Source: an uncultured bacterium (GTDB lineage Bacteria > Bacillota > Clostridia > Oscillospirales > Oscillospiraceae). Taken from it: a stretch of 55,279 bases of DNA. Below, one piece after another: positions 1,444 through 35,620 of this stretch. Position numbers and translations under genes: made by a program. The DNA lies in assembly GCA_947643715.1 (NCBI GenBank), contig CANRXB010000015.1, positions 1 to 55,279 of the forward strand, in the 5' to 3' direction. How positions within the stretch are numbered: position 1 is the first letter of the stretch; each line of letters starts with the position of its first letter. The notes beneath the pieces are model-generated. The model saw only the letters and a list, made by a program, of their open reading frames with translations. It was not told where the DNA came from and did no database searches.

Positions 1444-2667
1444 ATGATGACGTTAGACGATTTCCGCGCCGCCCGAAAGACCCTGGACGGCGTGCTCCAC
1501 CGCACCGACCTGATGTACAGCCCCTTCTTCTCCAAAGCCACCGGCGATCATGTGTACATCAAGCCGGAAAACATGCAGGTCACCGGGGCATATAAGATCC
1601 GCGGGGCCTATTTCAAGTGTTCCACCCTCACCGACGAGGAAAAGGCCCGGGGGCTCGTCACCGCCTCCGCCGGGAACCATGCCCAGGGAGTGGCCTACGC
1701 CGCTCAGGCCGCCGGCGTGCAGGCCACCATCGTCATGCCCACCACCACTCCCCTGGTGAAAGTGAACAACACCAAGGACTATGGCGCCAAGGTGGTGCTC
1801 CACGGCGAGACCTTCGACGACGCGGCGGCGCTGGCCGCCCAGCTCAGCCAGGAGGAAGGGCTCACCTATGTACATCCCTTCGACGACCTCACCGTGTCCA
1901 CCGGCCAGGGCACCATCGCCTATGAGATATTCAAGGACCTGCCCGACGTGGACGTGATCCTGGTGCCGGTCGGCGGCGGCGGTCTGGCGGCAGGCGTGTC
2001 CACCCTGGCCAAGCTGCTCAACCCGTCGGTGGAGGTCATCGGCGTGGAGCCCTCCGGGGCCGCCTCCATGAAGGCCAGCCTGGAGGCCGGCCACGTGGTC
2101 ACGCTGGAGCACATCTCCACCATCGCCGACGGCGTGGCGGTCAAGACCCCGGGGACGCAGGTGTTCCCCTATATCCAGAAGAACCTGGACGGCATCATCA
2201 CCATCGACGACGGCGAGCTGGTGGACGCGTTCCTGGACGTGATGGAAAAGCACAAGATGGTGGTGGAGAACGCCGGGCTGCTCACCATCGCGGCCCTGAA
2301 GCATCTGGAACGCCGGGGCCAGAACGTGGTCAGCGTGCTGTCCGGCGGGAACATGGACGTGATCACCATCTCCTCCCTGGTGCAGCATGGGCTCATCAAC
2401 CGGGGGCGCATCTTCACCTTCTCGGTGCAGCTCCCCGACCGGCCCGGCGAGCTGCTGCGCATCGCCGACCTGGTGGCCAAGCTCAACGGCAACATCATCA
2501 AGCTGGACCACAACCAGTTCGTCAACATCAACCGGCAGGCTGGGGTGGAGCTGAAGGTGACGCTGGAGGCCTTCGGCCTGAGCCACAAAGCGGAGATCCT
2601 GGACAGCCTGAACCGGGAGGGCTATCAGGTCCGGGAGGTCCCGCCCAGCGGCACCATCACCTGCTGA
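1444..2667 (+). CDS. ilvA: Threonine ammonia-lyase with C-terminal ACT domain
   Basis: This PLP enzyme deaminates L-threonine to 2-oxobutanoate and ammonia, the first step toward isoleucine or, in catabolism, toward propionate. The 407-residue protein has the fold-type II PLP lysine in GAYKIRG (K51), the SAGNHAQGVA motif near residue 78, and a Gly-rich phosphate loop VGGGGLA near residue 180. A single ACT domain follows from about residue 330, starting FTFSVQLPDRPGELLRIADL. That arrangement is typical of the roughly 400-residue clostridial and catabolic type, not the longer two-ACT biosynthetic enzyme. The ATG follows GGGAG with good spacing. It has its own promoter and is followed by a hairpin, so it is probably monocistronic. 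No branched-chain amino acid genes are adjacent. Confidence 0.93.
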   Translation: MMTLDDFRAARKTLDGVLHRTDLMYSPFFSKATGDHVYIKPENMQVTGAYKIRGAYFKCSTLTDEEKARGLVTASAGNHAQGVAYAAQAAGVQATIVMPTTTPLVKVNNTKDYGAKVVLHGETFDDAAALAAQLSQEEGLTYVHPFDDLTVSTGQGTIAYEIFKDLPDVDVILVPVGGGGLAAGVSTLAKLLNPSVEVIGVEPSGAASMKASLEAGHVVTLEHISTIADGVAVKTPGTQVFPYIQKNLDGIITIDDGELVDAFLDVMEKHKMVVENAGLLTIAALKHLERRGQNVVSVLSGGNMDVITISSLVQHGLINRGRIFTFSVQLPDRPGELLRIADLVAKLNGNIIKLDHNQFVNINRQAGVELKVTLEAFGLSHKAEILDSLNREGYQVREVPPSGTITC

Positions 2668-2676
2668 TATCACGAT

Positions 2677-2703
2677 CCCCCCGCCGCACGGGGCGGCGGG
2701 GGG
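2677..2703 (+). terminator. Hairpin terminator after ilvA
   Basis: Perfect 11 bp G+C stem (2677-2687 with 2693-2703) and a 5 nt loop, 10 bp after the ilvA stop. It lacks a strong T run (TATT follows), so it could be an inefficient or Rho-assisted terminator. Confidence 0.6.
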
Positions 2704-2893
2704 TATTAAGGTGCGGCGCGCCCTCCGGACGGGACGGCGGGCACGAGCGGGGGACTTTGGGGAGCCTCCCGCCGCAGTCCGGGGCGACCTCCGCGTGTTC
2801 TATCCTATGCGGCCGGGCCGCAGGTGCGCCGGGTCGGCCCCGCGGCGAAACCTGTCCCGGCAGTGGAAATTTGAGAAAATGGGGGAAAAGATC

Positions 2894-3547
2894 ATGGTCA
2901 AAGTGGCCCCTTCCATCCTTTCAGCGGATTTTTGCGATCTGAGCTCAGACATCCGCCGGGTGTCCGGCGCGGACTGGCTCCATGTGGACGTGATGGACGG
3001 GATGTTCGTGCCCAATCTCACCGTGGGCATCCCGGTGGTGCGGTCCATCCGGTCCCACACCGACATGTTCCTAGACGTACACCTGATGATAGACAAGCCC
3101 GCCCGGTACATCGACGCTTTCTGCAAGGCCGGGGCGGATCTGCTCAGCGTCCACCTCGAGGCCGACCACCCTGACCGCATCGCGGACGCCCTGCGGGCCA
3201 TGGAGGCCAACGGCGTGAAAAAAGCGGTGGCCCTGCGGCCCATCACGTCGGCCAGGGCCATCCTGCCCTACATCGAGCAGTTGGACATGGTGCTGGTGAT
3301 GACCGTGGAGCCCGGCTTCGGCGGCCAGCGGTTCCTGGAGGACCAGCTCGCCACCATCCGGGAGGTGCGGGCCATCATCGACGAGCGCCGGCCCGGCTGC
3401 GAGCTGGAGGTGGACGGAGGCATCGGCCCCGACAACGCCCCGGCGGTGGCGGAAGCCGGCGCCACGGTGCTGGTGGCAGGCTCGGCGGTCTACGGCGCAG
3501 CGGATCCCGGCGCGGCCATCGCAGCTTTGCGGCAGGCCGGAAGATAA
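2894..3547 (+). CDS. rpe: Ribulose-phosphate 3-epimerase
   Basis: The enzyme interconverts ribulose-5-phosphate and xylulose-5-phosphate in the pentose phosphate pathway. The 217-residue protein begins MVKVAPSILSADF, the standard start of the family. Metal ligands fit H30 and D32 (HVDVMDG), H63 (DVHLMI) and D174 (ELEVDGGIG). The TIM-barrel phosphate loop appears as VEPGFGGQ near residue 139. An open frame extends further upstream, but that part is basic, low-complexity and unlike any Rpe. The chosen ATG at 2894 has GGGGGA at ideal spacing. The 190 bp between the ilvA terminator and this gene hold no clear promoter. recR follows after 20 bp, suggesting cotranscription. Confidence 0.93.
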   Translation: MVKVAPSILSADFCDLSSDIRRVSGADWLHVDVMDGMFVPNLTVGIPVVRSIRSHTDMFLDVHLMIDKPARYIDAFCKAGADLLSVHLEADHPDRIADALRAMEANGVKKAVALRPITSARAILPYIEQLDMVLVMTVEPGFGGQRFLEDQLATIREVRAIIDERRPGCELEVDGGIGPDNAPAVAEAGATVLVAGSAVYGAADPGAAIAALRQAGR

Positions 3548-3567
3548 CGATCTAGGAGCGTACTGAT

Positions 3568-4170
3568 ATGGAGCATTTCCCTGCGGCTTTGGAGACCCTC
3601 GTGGAGCAATTCGCCAAGCTGCCCGGCGTGGGACGCAAGAGCGCCCAGCGGTTGGCTTTCTACATCCTGGACCAGCCGGAACAGACCGCCAGCGAGTTCG
3701 CCGCCGCCCTGCTGGACGCGAAACGGTCCATCGGCTGCTGCCCGGTGTGCCAGAACCTCACCGACGGGGACGGGAGGTGTCCTTTGTGCGCCTCCTCCAA
3801 GCGGGACCACAGCGTGGTGTGCGTGGTGGCCGACCCCAAGGACGTGATGGCCATGGAACGTTCCCGGGAGTACCAGGGCGTGTACCACGTGCTCCACGGG
3901 GTGATATCCCCCATGAACCATGTGGGGCCGGACGATCTGCGCATCGCCCAGCTCGTGGACCGGGTGGCCGCCGGAGGCGTGGAGGAGGTCATCATGGCCA
4001 CCAACCCGGACACCGAGGGCGAGACCACCGCCATGTACCTGTCCCGGCTGCTCAGGCCCTTCGGGGTGCGGACCACCCGGCTCGCCTACGGCATCCCGGT
4101 GGGCAGCCATCTGGAGTTCGCCGACGACGCCACTTTGATGAGGGCCCTGGAGGGCAGGCGGGAGATCTAG
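3568..4170 (+). CDS. recR: Recombination protein RecR
   Basis: RecR works with RecF and RecO to load RecA on gapped DNA. The 200-residue length is standard. An N-terminal helix-hairpin-helix (LPGVGRKSAQRLAFYIL, about residues 18-34) is followed by a zinc site CPVC...CPLC (residues 58-74) and a Toprim domain starting VCVVADPKDVMAMER. The closing segment, with TNPDTEGETTAMYLSRLL and the C-terminal LAYGIPVGSHLEFAD, is highly typical. It is usually beside dnaX and a YbaB gene, but here it follows rpe and precedes fbp. The ATG is preceded by AGGAG. A 175 bp gap with weak inverted repeats separates it from fbp. Confidence 0.96.
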   Translation: MEHFPAALETLVEQFAKLPGVGRKSAQRLAFYILDQPEQTASEFAAALLDAKRSIGCCPVCQNLTDGDGRCPLCASSKRDHSVVCVVADPKDVMAMERSREYQGVYHVLHGVISPMNHVGPDDLRIAQLVDRVAAGGVEEVIMATNPDTEGETTAMYLSRLLRPFGVRTTRLAYGIPVGSHLEFADDATLMRALEGRREI

Positions 4171-26943: not shown

Positions 26944-28335
26944 TCATTTGAGGGCCTCGCTGTTCACGAATTTCCCGCGGAACAGCGTGATCAGCAGGAT
27001 CTCGATATCGAACAGCAGGCTCCAATGCTCGATGTAATAGATGTCATGCTCCACACGGGCCTTGATGGAGGTGTCCCCCCGCAGCCCGTTCACCTGGGCC
27101 CAGCCGGTGATGCCCGGCCGGACCTGATGCTTCACCATATACAAAGGCACATCTTGCTTGAATCGCTCCACATAGTAGGGGATCTCCGGCCGCGGGCCCA
27201 CCAGGCTCATGTCCCCTTTGAGCACGTTGAAGAACTGAGGCAGCTCGTCCAGGGACAGCTTGCGCATGAACGCCCCGAACCTGGTCTTACGCCCGTCGTG
27301 GTCCGTGCTCCAGCCGGTGTCCTGCCCGCCGTTCACATGCATGGACCGGAACTTGTACATATAGAACCGTTTTTTCCCCAGCCCTACACGCTCCTGCTTG
27401 AAGATGACAGGTCCAGGCGAGGTCAGCTTCACTCCGACCGCACATAGCAGCATGGCCGGCGAGGACAGGAGGATCAGCACCAGCGATCCGGCGATGTCCA
27501 TGGCGCGCTTGCAGAACGCGTTGGCCCAGTTGTCCAGCGGGATGCGCCGCAGGTTCAGCAAAGGGATGCCCTCCAGCTCATCGAACTGGGGGTTGGAGGG
27601 CATGTATTTGGCATAGAACGGGATGATGGACAGCTTCGTCCCCGTCTTTTCACAGGCGGCGATGATCTCCGGCATCCGCCCATAGTCCTCAACGCTGATG
27701 GCGCAGACCACCTCGTCCGGACGGTGCTTGTTCAAGAGCTGCTCCAGCTTGTCGAAGCCGCCCAGACGCTTGGCCCCCGGCGGATCCACCATCTGCTGGG
27801 ACGCCACATAGCCGGTGGCATGATAGCCCAGCTCCCGCTGGGTATGGATGGTCTCCAGATAGGCCCGCGCCATCTCGCCGCTGCCCAGCACCATCACATG
27901 CTTCTGATTGTAGCCCTGCTGGCGGAAATACCGCAGCACCCCGCGCAGGATCACCCGCTTCCCGCTGAGCAGCCCTGTGCTCAGCAGGCACCAGATGCCC
28001 AGGGTCAGCCGGGAGAAGTCGATATAACGCTGAACGAACAGGATACTGAGCAGCACCGCCATCACCAGTCCGTTGGCCACCCAGAGCCGCTCCAGCTCCC
28101 GGCCCAGGCGGATCCTGCGGAATGACTGATACAGGCCGAAGGTGGCATAGATGAACAGTTGGGCGGCAGTCAAAAGTATGCCCAACAGCATATAATGATA
28201 CAACGGCACCGAGGGGACCCCCCCCTCCAGGATGGAGAAGCGGATCCAGAACGCCAGCGGCAGCGTGGCGTATAAGATGATCCCATCGGTGAGCACATGG
28301 AGCCGGTTCAGCAGCAGTTGATTCTCTTTTATCAT
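26944..28335 (-). CDS. Polyprenyl-phosphate sugar-1-phosphate transferase (WcaJ/WbaP type)
   Basis: This integral membrane enzyme starts surface polysaccharide synthesis by moving a sugar-1-phosphate to undecaprenyl phosphate. The 463-residue protein has four N-terminal membrane helices (within residues 1-130) and a Rossmann-like CoA-binding-type domain (VMVLGSGEMARAYLETIHTQ). A re-entrant helix follows near residue 285, then the catalytic bacterial sugar transferase domain with KRFYMYKFRSMHVNGG, KLSLDELPQFFNVLKGDMSL and VGPRPEIPYYVERF. All catalytic hallmarks are present. The ATG follows GAGAGA; the ligase-like gene ends 25 bp upstream. Confidence 0.93.
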   Translation of the reverse strand: MIKENQLLLNRLHVLTDGIILYATLPLAFWIRFSILEGGVPSVPLYHYMLLGILLTAAQLFIYATFGLYQSFRRIRLGRELERLWVANGLVMAVLLSILFVQRYIDFSRLTLGIWCLLSTGLLSGKRVILRGVLRYFRQQGYNQKHVMVLGSGEMARAYLETIHTQRELGYHATGYVASQQMVDPPGAKRLGGFDKLEQLLNKHRPDEVVCAISVEDYGRMPEIIAACEKTGTKLSIIPFYAKYMPSNPQFDELEGIPLLNLRRIPLDNWANAFCKRAMDIAGSLVLILLSSPAMLLCAVGVKLTSPGPVIFKQERVGLGKKRFYMYKFRSMHVNGGQDTGWSTDHDGRKTRFGAFMRKLSLDELPQFFNVLKGDMSLVGPRPEIPYYVERFKQDVPLYMVKHQVRPGITGWAQVNGLRGDTSIKARVEHDIYYIEHWSLLFDIEILLITLFRGKFVNSEALK

Positions 28336-28360: not shown

Positions 28361-30691
28361 TTACGTCCGCATACGTTCTATGAAAGCCCAGGTCTCGGCG
28401 TCCACATCGATCTGTCCCAGGTTTTCCCGGTTCCAAGCCTCCATCAGCTCCGCGATGTGCGTCACTCCCGCCCGGTAGACCTCTGTGTCCTGCTCGTACC
28501 GCTCCAAAAGATCGAAGGTGTCCTGCCATGCGGCATTGGCCGAGGATACATAGTCCACATACTGCTCCGCCATCTCCATCGCTTTTGGGATCTGCCCCGT
28601 CACCAAGTAATATTCCGCCAGACGGATCGGGATGGTGTTGGAGTGGATCTTTGCCAAACGCTCCGCATATCCGTTCGCCTTCTGCTGGGTCTCCGCATCG
28701 AGGTCCGGTTCTGTGGCCCATACCACATAGGTGAGCATATAATCCGCCCGTTCGAACAGGTCCAGGCCCATGGCCTCTTCCAGCTCCGGCAGCGTCCCGG
28801 CCTGGACCGCGATGCTCTGCGCCGTCATATTGCAGCCCAGCATGACGCCGAACACCACCATCAGCGCCGAGGCGCTCAGGGTCGCTCCGGTCCGGAAGCT
28901 CTGCTTGCCCATCCACGCGGGCACAGGGACCGCACTGCCGCAGCAAAGGTCGATGATCGCGAACACGCCGAACGCCATTGGCAGATACGGATAGGCGGAG
29001 AACACCAGCTCCACCGCGCCGTGCCCCACCATGAAGGCCAGGGCCGCGGCCAGGGCCGGGACGAGAGGCTGCTTCCTCCCCCGCCACACCGCCACGGCCG
29101 ATACCGCCAGGAGCCCCAGCAACAGCACGAGGCCCACGATCCCTGTCTCCGCCATGGTCTGGATATAGTGGTTATGGGCGTATTTGGTGGCATAGTGGAA
29201 GGTCTGCACGCTCCTCACGCCGTTCTCGAACGCCCCCAGCCCCAAGCCGATCACAGGGCTGCGCCGGAACAGCTTCAGCCCGTCCTCGAAAAAGACGAAG
29301 CGCTGGATGGCGTTCTGGTTCGCGAACAGGCCCTGGAGGCGGTTGGCCACGAAGCTGGGCAGGAGCTTGTACCCCAGCGGGATGGCGCCGGCGCCCCCCT
29401 CTCCCTCATAGGCCACCGACTCCAACCTGGACTGCCCGTCGGCCCGGAAGTTGAAATAGACCACCAAGCTGCCCTCGGGCACGGTGAATTCCGCCTGGGA
29501 CAGTGGGCCGGCATACAACTGGGTACTGGTGTGCATCATGGTCGCCGCGCGATCTTGGCTCTCGATGACTACGGACACCTCCCCGTCCGCCTGGGCCGTC
29601 AGGGCATACGTCCCCGGCGCGGGATAGCTGGAACGGCGCAGGGTCTCTCCCGCCTGGAGGGACACGCCGGTGGTCCAGTTGCAGGCCACCACGGCGAACA
29701 CCACCACCGCTGCCAGGACGGCGCCGACGAGGCACAAGACCGCCTTCCCGTGTTCGCTCAATCTGGCGGCTGCGCGCCGCCCGACGAACAGATCCAAAGC
29801 GCACAGGGCCGCAGCAGCGCCGATGGTGCACAGCAGCGGTATGGGCCGGACCCCGTCCCAAGCGGTCATAGAGGTCAGGGATATGGGGAAAGTGGCCAGC
29901 AGTGTCACCGTCAGCGTCTCCAGCATGAGCAACAGCAGGCTCGCCCGGCGCTCGCGGCTCTCGAACGCCAGGAACACCAGGAACGCGGGCACGATCATCA
30001 CGCACGCGCCCATACTGAACGCCAGCATGAACGCCAGAGAGTTGATCGACAGGCAGACCAGATGGACCGCCCGGGCCGCTTTCTTTTCCGTATAGACCGC
30101 CAGCCCCAGGCTCAAGAGCACACCGATGCCCATACAGCCGGCGAACACATTGGGGTTCATGAACACGGAGGTGATCCGCACCCCTTCCTCCACCACGTTC
30201 AGGTCGGTGTAATCGGGGGTGAACAGCTCCAGGAAAGCCAGCACCGGCGTACTGATGTACCGGGTGGACAGCAGATCGATGCTCACCAGCCCGGCGATGG
30301 CGGCGCAGCCTTCCAGGACCACCGCCGCCTGCCTGCCCGGATCGCGCTCTCCGGTGAACGCCAGGAACAGGATCGCCAGGCAAAAGGCGGCCAGCACCTT
30401 CAAGAACTCGTACAGCGCATATTTCCCCGACACTGCATACAGGTTGGACAGACCGTCCATCAGCACCACCAAGCCCAGGGCCACGATGGGCAGCTTGACG
30501 CGGTCCCGCACCTTTTCATAGAACAGGAACACCGCCGACAGCGTCAGCAGGATCAGCAGGATAGCCGTTGATTTGATCGTGGCCGCTGAACACAGGCAAG
30601 CCGTGAAAAAGAACAGCGCGGCGGCCAGGATCAGATCGACAGACTGCCATGCTGTCCGCACGGACGGGGGGATCTTCGTACCACGGGCCAT
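28361..30691 (-). CDS. O-antigen ligase/polymerase-like membrane protein
   Basis: The 776-residue protein has about a dozen membrane segments. The conserved Wzy/O-antigen ligase region is RRSPVIGLGLGAFENGVRSV followed by KYAHNHYIQTMAETGIVGLV (about residues 470-520). A periplasm-like insert of about 110 residues (335-445) separates two membrane blocks. The C-terminal 170 residues are soluble and rich in helices that look like TPR repeats (YYLVTGQIPKAMEMAEQYVD). It likely polymerises or transfers a lipid-linked glycan outside the membrane. The ATG has AAAGGTGAT upstream. It precedes the WcaJ-like and GT4 genes in one transcript. Confidence 0.9.
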   Translation of the reverse strand: MARGTKIPPSVRTAWQSVDLILAAALFFFTACLCSAATIKSTAILLILLTLSAVFLFYEKVRDRVKLPIVALGLVVLMDGLSNLYAVSGKYALYEFLKVLAAFCLAILFLAFTGERDPGRQAAVVLEGCAAIAGLVSIDLLSTRYISTPVLAFLELFTPDYTDLNVVEEGVRITSVFMNPNVFAGCMGIGVLLSLGLAVYTEKKAARAVHLVCLSINSLAFMLAFSMGACVMIVPAFLVFLAFESRERRASLLLLMLETLTVTLLATFPISLTSMTAWDGVRPIPLLCTIGAAAALCALDLFVGRRAAARLSEHGKAVLCLVGAVLAAVVVFAVVACNWTTGVSLQAGETLRRSSYPAPGTYALTAQADGEVSVVIESQDRAATMMHTSTQLYAGPLSQAEFTVPEGSLVVYFNFRADGQSRLESVAYEGEGGAGAIPLGYKLLPSFVANRLQGLFANQNAIQRFVFFEDGLKLFRRSPVIGLGLGAFENGVRSVQTFHYATKYAHNHYIQTMAETGIVGLVLLLGLLAVSAVAVWRGRKQPLVPALAAALAFMVGHGAVELVFSAYPYLPMAFGVFAIIDLCCGSAVPVPAWMGKQSFRTGATLSASALMVVFGVMLGCNMTAQSIAVQAGTLPELEEAMGLDLFERADYMLTYVVWATEPDLDAETQQKANGYAERLAKIHSNTIPIRLAEYYLVTGQIPKAMEMAEQYVDYVSSANAAWQDTFDLLERYEQDTEVYRAGVTHIAELMEAWNRENLGQIDVDAETWAFIERMRT

Positions 30692-30846: not shown

Positions 30847-31410
30847 TTACGGGAACACGACCTCCAGGCCCTTGATATCCTTGACGGCCTTGCCGTCCGC
30901 GCGGATGGTGACGCTGTAAGCGCCCATGATGCTGACCTCAGCCTTGAAGCTCACGGTGGTGGCATCCTTGAACTGGGTCTTGAGGGCCTCGTTAGGCAGA
31001 GTGATGACGGCCAGGTCGCTCTCGATGACCAAGCCCTCGCCGGTCTTCTCGGCCACGGCGACCAGGCTCTTGGCGGGCACGGAGAAGTTGACGGTGGAAG
31101 CGCCCTTAGCGCTGATCTTCAGCACCAGGACCTCGCCCTCCTTCAGCTGCTCGATGATGCTGTCCATGGCCTTCTCGGTCATGGAGACGTTGGCGATGCC
31201 ATTGATGACCTTCGCGCTGATGACGGCCTCGCCGGCCTCCAGGGTGATGTCCTCGTCCTCGACCTTGGTGTCGTTGGCGGTGGTGTCCTCGTAGAAGTTG
31301 TAGTAGTAGTTGTTGTTACCAGTGGTGTTGGCAGCAGCCAGAGCGGTGACAGGCAGCATAGCCAGGACCATGCCGACTGCCAGCAGCTTGGCGATGAGTT
31401 TCTTGTTCAT
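30847..31410 (-). CDS. Secreted protein of unknown function with a single S-layer-protein-like domain
   Basis: The 187-residue product has a clear signal peptide (MNKKLIAKLLAVGMVLAMLP, cleavage after ALA near residue 26) and a short Asn/Tyr-rich segment. One domain of about 140 residues follows (ISAKVINGIANVSMTEKAMD, SAKGASTVNFSVPAKSLVAV, VTIRADGKAVKDIKGLEV). From memory, similar domains occur in large cell-surface proteins of gut Oscillospiraceae, where SLH anchor domains follow. Here the protein ends directly after the domain and has no anchor. It could be a short extracellular protein or a truncated paralogue. AGGAGAC precedes the ATG. A 24-codon frame lies 60 bp upstream. Confidence 0.78.
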   Translation of the reverse strand: MNKKLIAKLLAVGMVLAMLPVTALAAANTTGNNNYYYNFYEDTTANDTKVEDEDITLEAGEAVISAKVINGIANVSMTEKAMDSIIEQLKEGEVLVLKISAKGASTVNFSVPAKSLVAVAEKTGEGLVIESDLAVITLPNEALKTQFKDATTVSFKAEVSIMGAYSVTIRADGKAVKDIKGLEVVFP

Positions 31411-31637: not shown

Positions 31638-33239
31638 TTACCCAATGGACGCCGGCGGTGTGGACACGATCTCCCCCGCCTTGTCCAGCGCGGCAGCAAT
31701 GGCCTCATCCATATCATAATGCCGGTGCTCACCCAGTCTCCCACCGAAGGTGACGTTCGGATACGCCTTCGCTAACTCCAGATACTGCTTATAAAGCTCC
31801 CTGTTCCGCTTATCTTCGACGGGATAGTAAAGGCCCCTCCCCGGGATCCATTCCTCCGGGTACTCACGGGTGATCACTGTTTTGGGGCTGCGCGATCCTG
31901 CGATGTGTTTGTGTTCGATGATGCGGGTATAGGGCGTCTCCTCGCCGGGACACTCCACGATCGCCCGCCCTTGGAAGTCCGGCTGCTTCAAGATCTCCTC
32001 TTCGAAGCGCAAGCTGCGGTACTCCAGCCTGCCCAGCTTATACTGGAAGAATTGGTCGATGGGTCCGGTATAGACGATGTGCTCCGCGATCTTCGGGAAC
32101 GCATCCGCCACGCTCTGATAGGACATGCCGGTCACGACGCTCGCGCCATCCAAGAGCCCCTCGATCAGCGGGCCGTAGCCCTGCTCCGGTACGCCTACGT
32201 ATCGATCGGCGAGGCCGCTGCCGTCGAACGGCAGGAGCTCGACATACTGCCCCACCAGATCCCAGATCTTTTTTTCATTCGTATGGAAGATATGTGCGCC
32301 ATATTTATGGACCGGGATGCCCTCCACCTTCTCGCAGTAGAGGTTCCCCCCTGTGTGAGCGCGGCTGTCGATCACCAGGCAGCGCCTCCCCTGGTCCATC
32401 GCTTCCCTGGCGAACACCGCTCCGTACAGCCCCGCGCCGACGACCAGATAGTCGTAGTGGCCGTTCAGGGCCTTCCAGGCGCGCTTGGCCCCATCCAAGG
32501 TGAGCTTCTTGTCCAGGTACTGCTGATACAGCCCGCACAGCACCTGCGCGTCCCCAAAGGCGATCTGCTGTCCTTTCTCCAGCCAGAGCACCTTGTTGCA
32601 CAGCTCCTTGACCTGCTGGATGGAGTGGCTCACCAGGATTGTGGTCGCGCCGCTCTTGATGATCTCCCGCATCTTGGCCTCGCTCTTCTTGCGGAACGCG
32701 CCGTCGCCCACGGAGAGCACCTCGTCCAGGATCAGGATGTCCGGCTGGACGAGGGACGCGATGGCGAAAGCGAGCCGGGACCTCATGCCGGAGGAGAGCT
32801 GCTTGAAGGGCCTGTCCTGGAAATCCTTCAGCTCCGCGAACTCGATGATGCTGTCATAGGTCTCGTCCATGAACTTGCGGGTGTAGCCCAGCATGGCTCC
32901 CCGAAGATACGCGTTCTCCCGCACCGTCAGGTCCCCGTCGAAGCCGCTGGCCAGCTCCAGCAAGGCCGCGACGTTCCCTTCCCGCCTGACCCACCCCTTC
33001 GTAGGTTCCATGATGCCGGAAACGGCCTTCAACAAAGTGGATTTCCCCGCTCCGTTGGTGCCGATGATGCCCAGCATATCTCCCTTCTCCAAGGCGAATG
33101 TGATGTCTCTGTCCGCCCAGAACTCATTGACCTGGTAATTGTGCTTCAGCCTTCGCATCACATATTCCTTCAGGCCGATGTCTTTGAAATCTCCGGTCAT
33201 GTATCGGATCGAGACGTTTTTTACCTCTAAAGTCGTCAT
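31638..33239 (-). CDS. Fusion: polysaccharide-export ABC ATPase joined to a UDP-galactopyranose mutase that lacks its middle domain
   Basis: Residues 1-255 form a complete ABC ATPase of the Wzt/TagH export type: Walker A GTNGAGKST (60-68), signature LSSGM (149-153), Walker B ILILDEV and H-loop SH near 204. From residue 262 the frame continues as UDP-galactopyranose mutase: YDYLVVGAGLYGAVFA (FAD loop), VHKYGAHIFHTNEKKIWD, then abruptly ADRYVGVPEQGY, YTGPIDQFF, LEYRSL, PYTRIIEHKHI and FGGRLGEHRHYDMDE. Compared with Escherichia coli Glf (recalled, 367 residues) about 100 residues after residue 335 are missing. These make up the helical substrate-binding domain with its conserved Trp and Arg. No permease gene is adjacent. 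Start ATG 33239 has GGAG upstream. Mutase activity is doubtful. Confidence 0.85.
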   Translation of the reverse strand: MTTLEVKNVSIRYMTGDFKDIGLKEYVMRRLKHNYQVNEFWADRDITFALEKGDMLGIIGTNGAGKSTLLKAVSGIMEPTKGWVRREGNVAALLELASGFDGDLTVRENAYLRGAMLGYTRKFMDETYDSIIEFAELKDFQDRPFKQLSSGMRSRLAFAIASLVQPDILILDEVLSVGDGAFRKKSEAKMREIIKSGATTILVSHSIQQVKELCNKVLWLEKGQQIAFGDAQVLCGLYQQYLDKKLTLDGAKRAWKALNGHYDYLVVGAGLYGAVFAREAMDQGRRCLVIDSRAHTGGNLYCEKVEGIPVHKYGAHIFHTNEKKIWDLVGQYVELLPFDGSGLADRYVGVPEQGYGPLIEGLLDGASVVTGMSYQSVADAFPKIAEHIVYTGPIDQFFQYKLGRLEYRSLRFEEEILKQPDFQGRAIVECPGEETPYTRIIEHKHIAGSRSPKTVITREYPEEWIPGRGLYYPVEDKRNRELYKQYLELAKAYPNVTFGGRLGEHRHYDMDEAIAAALDKAGEIVSTPPASIG

Positions 33240-33445
33240 ATGTGCTCCAGCATGTTTGATGTGATCGGACGTCGAACAAAAAACGACAGATCGGACCCAG
33301 CCCCAAGCAAAACTCCATCGAACGGCAACCGATCGCGAAGCGTCCCCCGCCTTTGGAGGTCCCTGCGTTCGCGGGCTCTCGTCCGCTGCGGGACAGCTCC
33401 CGCACGCAGGACGGAAAAAAGTTACCATGGCAGTTTTACTTGTAC

Positions 33446-33474
33446 ATGATACCACCTGAAACAAAAAAAAGCAA
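33446..33474 (-). promoter_or_regulatory. Promoter for the ABC-Glf fusion gene
   Basis: On the minus strand TTGCTT (33474-33469), 17 bp (including a T-rich stretch), TATCAT (33451-33446). It gives a leader of about 200 nt. Confidence 0.6.
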
Positions 33475-33705
33475 TAGATTTTTTTCGCGCCGCTCCCCCG
33501 GCCCCTTGGGACGCCGTATCGGCGCGTCGGACGATCGCGGCAAAGTGCTTCCGATACCGGCGAAACGCGGCTCCCCATGTACGAAACCGCCTCGAAACGG
33601 CCTCATCGGGAAAACCAGGAAAGCAGGAGCGTCCTCGGACGGATCGCGGTCGTATCGGAGCGAAAGCGGCCCCCATGCGCCGGGACACGAACGCAGACAT
33701 CTCCG

Positions 33706-33769
33706 CCTTCCCGGCCTCGGCGCACGGCCGCCCCGGGCCGCTGCGCCCAGGGGCCGGCCGCCGGGAAGG
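33706..33769 (-). repeat. Large nested G+C-rich inverted repeat after the phosphoglucomutase gene
   Basis: Outer arms CCTTCCCGGC (33706-33715) and GCCGGGAAGG (33760-33769). The interior holds further GCGCA/TGCGC and CGGCC/GGCCG pairings. It is right after the phosphoglucomutase stop on the minus strand. Without a T run it is more like a 3' stabiliser or weak terminator. Confidence 0.5.
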
Positions 33770-33774
33770 GCCTG

Positions 33775-35463
33775 TCAGCCGGCGCTCCGCTCCTCGATCA
33801 GCGCGCGGGCCGCAGCAGTGAGCTGCTCCAACGCCTGCAAAGCTTCCGCCTCGCCGCTCCCCTTCGCGGACAGATACAGCTTCAGCTTGGGCTCGGTGCC
33901 CGAGGGACGCACGATGAGCTTGGCGTCCCCGCTCAGGCGCAGCTCCAGCACGTCGGCAGGGCCCAGGCCGGTGGGATCGTTCCGATAGTCCACCATCTGG
34001 AGGACGGCCCGGCCGGCCACCTCCCGCGGGGCTTCGCCGCGCAGGGAGGCCATCAGCCCCTCCATGGCCCTCATGCCGTCCTGTCCCTCAAAGGCGATGC
34101 TGACCAAATCGTTTCGGTAAGCTCCGAACCTCTCGTACAAAGCGTCCATCGCGTCCAGCAGGGTCATCCCTTGGGCAGCATACCAAGCGGCGCACTCGCA
34201 GGCCAGCATCACGGCGTTCACCGCGTCCTTGTCCCGGACATGCGCCCCGGACAGGTAGCCATAGCTCTCTTCGAAGCCGAACACGAACCGATCCCTGCTC
34301 CCCTCCGCTTCCAGCAGGGCGATCTGTTCGCCGATGTATTTGAAGCCCGTGAGGGTCCGGCGCAGCTCCACGCCGTATTCCGCGGCCACGGGCGTGGCCA
34401 TGTCGGTGGACACGATGGTGGTGACCGCCACAGGGTCTTTGGGCATCGTCCCCTTTTCGATACGGGTGCGGCACAGGTAGTCCAAGAGCAGCACGCCCAT
34501 CTCGTTCCCGCTGATGAGGCGGTAGCCGCCCTTGCCGTCAGGCACCGCCGCGCCCATGCGGTCGCAGTCCGGGTCAGTGCCCAGCAGCAGATCGGGGCGG
34601 ACCTCATCGCACAGCCGGAGCCCCTCCTCCATGGCCTCCCGGATCTCCGGATTGGGATAGGGGCAGGTCGGGAAATGGCCGTCAGGCTCCTCCTGGGACG
34701 GGACCACAGTGAGGTCCGTGACCCCCATCTTGGCCAGCAGCTTCTTCACGCACTCCAGCCCGGAACCGTTGAGTGGGGTATATACCAGCTTCAGCTCGCT
34801 CACATCGTTGCCCGGGCGCAGGGCCAGCACCGCGTCCACGAAGCCGTCCAGGCACGCATCGCCGATGTACCGGATGGTCCCTGCGGCCACGGCCTCGTCG
34901 AAGCCGATGAGCTTCACGCCGTCGAAGCAGTCCGTTTTTTGGATCGCGGCCAGCACATCGTTCGCCGCCTCCGGTGTGATCTGACAGCCGTCCGCTCCAT
35001 ACACCTTATAGCCGTTGTATTTGGCCGGATTGTGGCTGGCCGTGATGCATATGCCTGCCCCGCAGCCATGATAGCGCACCGCCCAGCTCAGGGCCGGGGT
35101 CGGCTCCAGGCGCGGATAGATCCACACCGTGATGCCGTTCGCCGCGAGCACCCGGGCGGTCTCCCGGGCGAAGAGCTCTCCTTTGATGCGGCTGTCATAG
35201 GCGACGGCCGCAGACTTCGGGAGCCCGCTGGCATTGAGGTAGTCCGCGAGCCCCTGGGTCGCCCTGCGCACCGTATAGATGTTCATGCGATTTTCCCCCG
35301 CGCCGATGACGCCGCGAAGGCCGCCGGTGCCGAACGCCAGTTCCCGATAGAACCGATCGGACACCGCCTCCTGGTCGCCGCGTATCTCGCCGAGCTCCGC
35401 GATGAGGTCGGGATCTTCTCCCGCACGTTCCAGCCAACGCTCCAACTTCGCCTGATGATCCAT
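33775..35463 (-). CDS. Phosphoglucomutase/phosphomannomutase (alpha-D-phosphohexomutase)
   Basis: It interconverts hexose-1- and hexose-6-phosphates, feeding NDP-sugar synthesis for the surface polysaccharide. The 562-residue protein has the four domain signatures of the superfamily: the phosphoserine loop TASHNPAKYNGYK (S143), the metal loop GTDPDCDRMG near residue 297, the sugar-specificity loop FGFEESYGYLSG near residue 403, and the phosphate-binding RPSGTEPKLKLYL near the end. The length fits the bacterial two-specificity or Pgm type found in Firmicutes. ATG 35463 has AAGGAGG 8 nt upstream. It has its own promoter. Confidence 0.94.
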   Translation of the reverse strand: MDHQAKLERWLERAGEDPDLIAELGEIRGDQEAVSDRFYRELAFGTGGLRGVIGAGENRMNIYTVRRATQGLADYLNASGLPKSAAVAYDSRIKGELFARETARVLAANGITVWIYPRLEPTPALSWAVRYHGCGAGICITASHNPAKYNGYKVYGADGCQITPEAANDVLAAIQKTDCFDGVKLIGFDEAVAAGTIRYIGDACLDGFVDAVLALRPGNDVSELKLVYTPLNGSGLECVKKLLAKMGVTDLTVVPSQEEPDGHFPTCPYPNPEIREAMEEGLRLCDEVRPDLLLGTDPDCDRMGAAVPDGKGGYRLISGNEMGVLLLDYLCRTRIEKGTMPKDPVAVTTIVSTDMATPVAAEYGVELRRTLTGFKYIGEQIALLEAEGSRDRFVFGFEESYGYLSGAHVRDKDAVNAVMLACECAAWYAAQGMTLLDAMDALYERFGAYRNDLVSIAFEGQDGMRAMEGLMASLRGEAPREVAGRAVLQMVDYRNDPTGLGPADVLELRLSGDAKLIVRPSGTEPKLKLYLSAKGSGEAEALQALEQLTAAARALIEERSAG

Positions 35464-35512
35464 GACAAAAGCCTCCTTATCCTCAATGACGCTCGATGCC
35501 TTGCTCACGTGG

Positions 35513-35541
35513 ATTATATCACATCCGGATCTCGATTTCAC
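35513..35541 (-). promoter_or_regulatory. Promoter for the phosphoglucomutase gene
   Basis: On the minus strand GTGAAA (35541-35536), 17 bp, perfect TATAAT (35518-35513) with an extended TG just before it, about 50 nt upstream of the start codon. Confidence 0.75.
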
Positions 35542-35620
35542 CATCTTTTTCACCAGATCCTGCCCGGCCTTCCGGTGGCTTTTCTTCCTGAGCGCTATCT
35601 CCCCGCCCTGAAAAGGGAAG

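Follow-up and report, generated by a model that had tools for sequence, protein, structure and literature searches.

A predicted glycan-exporter ATPase fused to a UDP-galactopyranose mutase-like tail that lacks domain 2

In a 55,279-nucleotide stretch of DNA from an uncultured member of the Oscillospiraceae (hereafter the window), a single open reading frame joins an ABC ATPase to a protein resembling UDP-galactopyranose mutase (UGM, or Glf) from which the substrate-binding domain is missing. Is this gene a relic left by two deletions or a new protein that couples an export ATPase to an FAD module, the two options raised by an earlier sequence-only reading, and what might its product do?

Translation of the minus strand from 33239 to 31638 gives 533 residues and a stop, with no internal stop codons; the open frame runs on upstream of 33239, but this start matches those of relatives and is preceded by a GGAG-like ribosome site. 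The proposal of a single frame in which a Wzt/TagH-type ATPase gives way to a Glf-like tail at residue 262 is borne out by the translation, by the match to E. coli UGM (1i8t) and by Pfam, which assigns ABC_tran to residues 45-174 (E 1e-23), NAD_binding_8 to 266-331 (E 7.8e-18) and only the later part of the GLF profile (positions 36-203 of 203) to 342-507 (Table 1). The ATPase, up to 88% identical to the corresponding modules of relatives, contains intact in translation what we take to be its Walker A (GTNGAGKST), signature (LSSGM), Walker B (ILILDE) and H-loop (SHS) motifs. Its best matches among solved chains include TarH, TagH (6jbh, 7dd0) and chains named ABC transporter or RfbE, and its top NCBIfam models are TagH and Wzt/RfbE, all scoring below cut-off (the TagH models at 191 of 538 and 179 of 320 bits); the TagH/TarH chains and models match residues ~24-245.

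Table 1. Positions of the fusion gene, its parts and neighbours in the window, and of related genes elsewhere (contig or locus given where outside the window)
Feature	Position	Strand	Basis or remark
Fusion gene, ABC ATPase plus short UGM (533 codons and a stop)	31638..33239	-	stop-free translation; Pfam; relatives with same architecture
ATPase module, residues 1-243	32511..33239	-	translation; ABC_tran E 1e-23
Linker, residues 244-261 (KKLTLDGAKRAWKALNGH)	32457..32510	-	alignment with other fusions
Tail, residues 262-335 (UGM domain 1, first Rossmann part)	32235..32456	-	E. coli UGM match from residue 2
Internal join, UGM domain 2 missing; 6+6 inverted repeat coincides	32218..32234	.	E. coli 79-177 absent (alignment)
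Tail, rest of domain 1 plus domain 3 of UGM, residues 342-533	31641..32217	-	Pfam GLF 342-507; E. coli UGM 175-366
Upstream gap, site of partner permease in relatives	33240..33774	.	no convincing permease remnant (tblastn)
Phosphoglucomutase/phosphomannomutase, upstream neighbour	33775..35553	-	
187-aa protein, signal-like start, no Pfam family; between fusion and Wzy_C gene	30847..31410	-	
Wzy_C-type membrane protein (O-antigen ligase/polymerase family)	28361..30691	-	E 9.6e-10
Bacterial sugar transferase (Bac_transf + CoA_binding_3)	26944..28335	-	
Unpaired full-length Wzm/TagG-type permeases (L095-L099)	C56:11585-12346, C23:12091-12855, C47:16102-16857, C39:16327-17088, C13:48670-49431		
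Standalone domain-2-less UGM-like proteins, genome G030	L082:8451-9332, L083:6235-7122, L081:5522-6505	- (all three)	few Pfam matches among neighbours
L146 fusion, another exporter ATPase subfamily plus full-length UGM	2168-4084		genome G1278, contig C19; own permease upstream

UGM binds FAD through domain 1 and substrate through domains 2 and 3, and a mobile loop closes as part of the mechanism (section 3.2 of PMC3624792). The window tail matches the E. coli enzyme in two pieces, residues 262-344 to E. coli 2-84 and 336-527 to E. coli 175-366, and its first part (262-335) includes the GxGxxG motif and the conserved histidine loop. In the multiple alignment the gap spans E. coli 79-177, so that the ~100-residue domain 2 is absent and with it N80, Y151, W156 and R170 (contact residues after Table 3 of PMC3624792, converted here from Klebsiella to E. 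coli numbering); the earlier suggestion that the middle domain is gone together with its conserved Trp and a substrate-binding Arg is thus upheld. On the curated UGM equivalog TIGR00031 the tail scores 252.3 of 303.75 bits, under the cut-off. The jump in sequence after the first FAD region is likewise confirmed, with the correction that the ADRY segment starts at residue 344 and not immediately after 335. The inverted repeat CTGCCG/CGGCAG noted at the join does lie at 32218-32234, on the codons of residues 336-341. It says nothing about how the join arose, since exact 6+6 inverted repeats with loops of 3-8 are ordinary in the window (168, or one per 329 bp), and we reject it as a deletion scar on that ground.

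Relatives were collected by a scan of one genome per species (37 loci) and by further genome searches, and on its sequences the short fusion appears to be a genuine protein family, not a damaged gene. It has twelve members in nine assemblies: the window protein, L034 and L035 (both from strain 1XD42-1), L036, L037, L039, L042, L074, L076, and L038, L040 and L041 from one assembly, the last two cut by contig ends. The same ATPase bears a full-length UGM tail in six relatives (L043, L044, L045, L046, L048 and L077), in which W156 is kept in 6/6 and R170 in 5/6; a seventh long fusion, at a contig end in G1280, lies outside the alignments. Three mini forms (L073, L078, L079) retain ~110 tail residues, comprising the first beta-alpha-beta of the Rossmann fold and one later segment, for which Pfam finds a trace of NAD_binding_8 in two (E 0.0025-0.003, under the cut-off) and nothing in the third. 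Tail-less versions of the same ATPase are common, and the forms coexist: strain 1XD42-1 has two short, one long and two tail-less, and Lapin-026 bin114 three, one and two.

At E ≤ 1e-140 the fusion was found in 4/400 sampled genomes of the family and 1/394 of the order, and at 1e-130 in 1/391 of the class, the order and class matches being the window genome itself; in these larger samples the three best candidates per genome were scored. The genus of G330 has it in 8/35 genomes, the matches being three short, three long and three mini, and the genus of G337 in 1/102 (both at E ≤ 1e-140), while in the window's own genus it occurs in one of 42 genomes, namely that of the window. UGMs without domain 2 also stand alone, without an ATPase, in G030 (three, L028, L030 and L032). 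Searches of viral contigs returned no related fusion, and among plasmids only two records matched, covering 44-45% of the query. UGM is known already, as are ATPases that carry accessory domains at the C-terminus; the fusion of the two and a lidless UGM are apparently new in the open literature searched, as no paper in open PubMed Central was found to describe an ATPase-UGM fusion or a UGM without domain 2, a search by residue likewise turned up none, and the portion of PMC7478625 covered holds nothing on such a fusion.

Domain 2 was probably lost more than once, in frame and at about the same structural boundary. The short tails as one clade are rejected by the AU test on either half of the tail (p 0.00048 for E. 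coli 2-78; p 0.0108 for 185-340), with the standalone short UGMs left out, and also on the joint tail alignment (p 0.003), a test tilted towards rejection because it placed the three standalone short UGMs with the other rows; a single origin of the short tail is therefore rejected on the tail alignments. The ATPase tree likewise rejects one short clade (p 9e-64), a result given no weight because ATPase and tail can recombine, as in L042 and L046. The window tail groups with the long L043 and with L034/L035 (support 99/90 in the joint tree, weaker in the half-alignment trees), and the remaining nine short tails group near the long L046; the standalone proteins of G030 fall within the short group on long branches. 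In all twelve fused short tails the gap starts at E. coli 79, and it ends at 177-182, with an extra small gap reaching 188 in three rows. This shared boundary in tails that do not form one clade suggests repeated loss of the lid, for which recombination between copies is an alternative. L042 and L046, short and long fusions of one genome, have ATPase modules identical over 243 codons (L042:6001-6729, L046:6001-6729) and diverged tails, a pattern that suggests cassette exchange or gene conversion. Two more fusions of an ATPase to UGM appear, on sequence, to have arisen separately. In L077 the UGM falls among standalone ones; in L146 a full-length UGM is joined to an ATPase that shares 45% identity with that of the window.

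What remains of the tail is unevenly conserved. Among the FAD-associated sites of the twelve short tails, 115/118 cells are kept (allowing Y/F at 12 and D at 31), and all ten are present in the window tail, where Y stands in place of F12 and D in place of E31, just as in the long fusions. Of the substrate sites that survive the gap, R278 is kept in 12/12, Y346 in 7/10, Y311 in 3/12 (the window, L034 and L035) and Y181, at the join, in 0/12; the window has G, R, Y and H at the positions of Y181, R278, Y311 and Y346. That FAD sites are kept while the remaining substrate residues erode suggests that, once catalysis had gone, the tail was retained as a body that binds flavin. In strain 1XD42-1 the long tail (L043:6001-7893) keeps its lid, yet has N39K and R340M at FAD contacts and R170K at a substrate site, and possibly represents a different route to a non-catalytic tail.

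Across 18 chosen pairs, tail dN/dS is 0.10-0.19 in seven of eight short-short pairs, the exception being L074/L076 (0.38), and 0.12 and 0.16 in two long-long pairs; it reaches 0.39-0.48 in three pairs of mini tails and, in mixed pairs, 0.49 (L042-L046, short-long) and 0.23 (L034-L043). For the window the ratio is uninformative, dS being saturated to L034, L035 and L043, and its tail has changed ~4x faster than its ATPase (dN 0.29-0.33 versus 0.075-0.080), compared with tail/ATPase dN ratios of 1.4 and 0.8 in the two long-long pairs.

The genomic setting of the window gene is atypical. Among fused relatives a permease gene lies upstream in 20/20, within ~20 bp of the ATPase start in 19 and at ~2 kb in L039, and the loci of the mini forms carry one as well. 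The earlier statement that no permease adjoins the window fusion holds, the best tblastn match to the permeases of five relatives within the window having E 0.2. The genome as a whole holds six related permeases and two related ATPases: one permease (67%) is paired with an ATPase on C71 (68%), and the other five, intact and 69-82% identical to the L034 permease, have no related ATPase within 6.5-11.5 kb downstream, the sole matches to the fusion on their contigs being generic ABC proteins of 25-29% identity on C23 and C47. Their surroundings differ, with RgpF, RmlD and MBOAT on C23, a Glyphos_transf protein on C47, DegT and ATP-grasp proteins on C39 and acyltransferases on C56 and C13. Four ATPases of other subfamilies (38-47% identical) each sit beside their own permease. 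In seven other genomes of the genus the count is one such permease to one such ATPase. The nine genomes with fused relatives total 23 permeases against 21 ATPases and a further one truncated at the end of its contig, so the six-to-two count of the window genome is the exception among those compared. G1279 was considered as a second genome with unpaired permeases and rejected: beside one of its candidates an ATPase begins at the end of the contig, and the other candidate is truncated by a contig end.

Taken together, the missing permease beside the fusion and the five permeases without a related ATPase, absences judged in a draft of 93 contigs that is 96% complete, indicate that the window fusion probably serves several permeases and may be their common motor. 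The generic ABC proteins on C23 and C47 and the four ATPases of other subfamilies weigh against it. MceG offers a partial parallel, as one ATPase described as common to two transporters (PMC9947336) and likewise proposed to act with permeases encoded elsewhere; Mce systems differ in importing lipids, and for the window fusion sharing is read from gene arrangement.

Which protein, then, does the locus encode? The account we favour, with somewhat better than even confidence, is an exporter ATPase whose pseudo-UGM tail binds FAD without catalysis and acts as an accessory or regulatory module. Architecture, recurrence, the residues missing or kept and the arrangement of permeases and ATPases are sequence-based, and from them we infer that the tail has lost mutase activity, binds FAD and plays an accessory part, and that several permeases share the ATPase. 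The fusion is predicted to be the subunit that hydrolyses ATP in a Wzm-Wzt/TagGH/RgpCD-type exporter for lipid-linked surface glycans, dimerising on the permease and powering export. Its tail would be a UGM cut down to FAD-binding domain 1 and domain 3, placed where some Wzt proteins carry a carbohydrate-binding domain and probably descended from a full-length, probably active UGM tail of the kind still found in relatives. Lacking domain 2, it cannot close over UDP-galactose and most likely no longer isomerises sugar nucleotides; with its FAD contacts kept, it would most likely hold or regulate the ATPase dimer. A bolder form of this account, a flavin-gated common motor in which one ATPase with a pseudo-UGM sensor drives at least five glycan-export permeases from separate clusters and the flavin or sugar-nucleotide state that the tail senses sets their export jointly, is compatible with the sequences and in our judgement unlikely.

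Among known systems, the fusion shares with TagH/TarH and RgpD, the latter being the ATPase of rhamnan export (RgpCD), the match of its ATPase to TagH/TarH and partner-type permeases that adjoin RgpF, Glyphos_transf or MBOAT genes, and differs in falling under the NCBIfam TagH cut-offs and in its UGM-like tail. With Glf (E. coli 1i8t) it has in common the sequence of domains 1 and 3, GxGxxG, the FAD contacts and R278, whereas it lacks domain 2 and the lid (N80, Y151, W156, R170), is fused to an ATPase and scores under the TIGR00031 cut-off. Like Wzt of ABC-dependent O-antigen export, which occurs with or without a C-terminal carbohydrate-binding domain of described role (PMC9445017, PMC11231755), it is predicted to be a polysaccharide-export ATPase with a Wzm-type permease partner, and it has an extra C-terminal domain; unlike in Wzt, that domain is UGM-derived, Pfam matching NAD_binding_8 and GLF and no jelly-roll carbohydrate-binding domain at the C-terminus, and the window gene has no adjoining permease.

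An assembly or binning artefact is practically negligible as an explanation: the window does come from a 93-contig draft, but a search for the same fusion and the same deletion, as the sequence-only reading had proposed, found both in eight other assemblies, and the join lies mid-contig in one open frame. Assembly error is rejected on these grounds, and by the criterion which that reading set the eight assemblies equally refute a unique decay event. Of the two original options, the new protein combining an ATPase with an FAD module is thus the better supported, and the relic survives in part, as stepwise reduction of the tail with a relaxed look in one lineage (L074/L076 and the mini forms). 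Because that lineage appears relaxed, drift towards tail loss is a serious rival, to which we give a real if minority chance. It holds that UGM activity became unneeded after fusion and that the tail is a passenger being lost in frame, from long through short and mini to none, stepwise because a deletion survives only if the ATPase can still fold. The graded series of tails on the same ATPase, the commonness of tail-less ATPases, the dN/dS of 0.38-0.48 in L074/L076 and the mini tails, the fast change along the window branch and the substitutions of L043 (N39K, R340M, R170K) at FAD and substrate sites would all follow. Yet a stop codon after the ATPase would drop the tail in one step, and the reduced tails are in frame; the low ratios of most short-short pairs, the retention of FAD sites as substrate sites go and the repetition of the loss at one structural boundary also speak for a tail that is kept.

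The tail might instead read a glycan or its carrier and so choose the export cargo, much as Wzt uses its C-terminal domain to recognise the capped end of an O antigen. Its position in the protein is that of the Wzt carbohydrate-binding domain as presented in PMC9445017 and PMC11231755, 12/12 short fused tails keep R278, which contacts the diphosphate in UGM, and paralogues within one genome carry differing tails. This is nonetheless quite unlikely, given the missing jelly-roll match and an ATPase that may serve five permeases in differing clusters (RgpF, Glyphos_transf, MBOAT, DegT, acyltransferase), since a motor common to several different glycans would be better suited by a general regulatory tail than by one that reads a single glycan. 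Least plausible among the functional readings, and very doubtful, is an active new enzyme whose flavin, with the lid gone, is open to larger substrates, so that it acts next to the export channel, isomerising or reducing a sugar attached to a lipid carrier or to the growing chain. The persistence of the FAD contacts, histidine loop and R278, of Y311 in the window, L034 and L035, and the rise of full-length UGM fusions to exporter ATPases more than once are in keeping with it; set against them are the absence of R170, W156, Y151 and N80, the replacement of Y311 in 9/12 short tails and the closing of the lid as part of the UGM mechanism set out in PMC3624792 (section 3.2).

If the pseudo-UGM accessory module is borne out, it would be a new kind of accessory module for polysaccharide-export ATPases, an enzyme turned into a non-catalytic tail. 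The stages of reduction (full, lidless, Rossmann remnant, none) occur on the same motor and sometimes in one genome, which would make the turn from enzyme to accessory testable by tail swaps. Should the ATPase be common to several permeases, glycan-export clusters without an ATPase would need a different reading.

Directly downstream of the mini form in L085 lies a protein with the two families, Bac_transf and CoA_binding_3, of the sugar transferase at 26944..28335 in the window. In the assembly that holds L040 and L041, the two contigs concerned both stop at fusion residue ~499, as if a repeated 3' end had broken the assembly.
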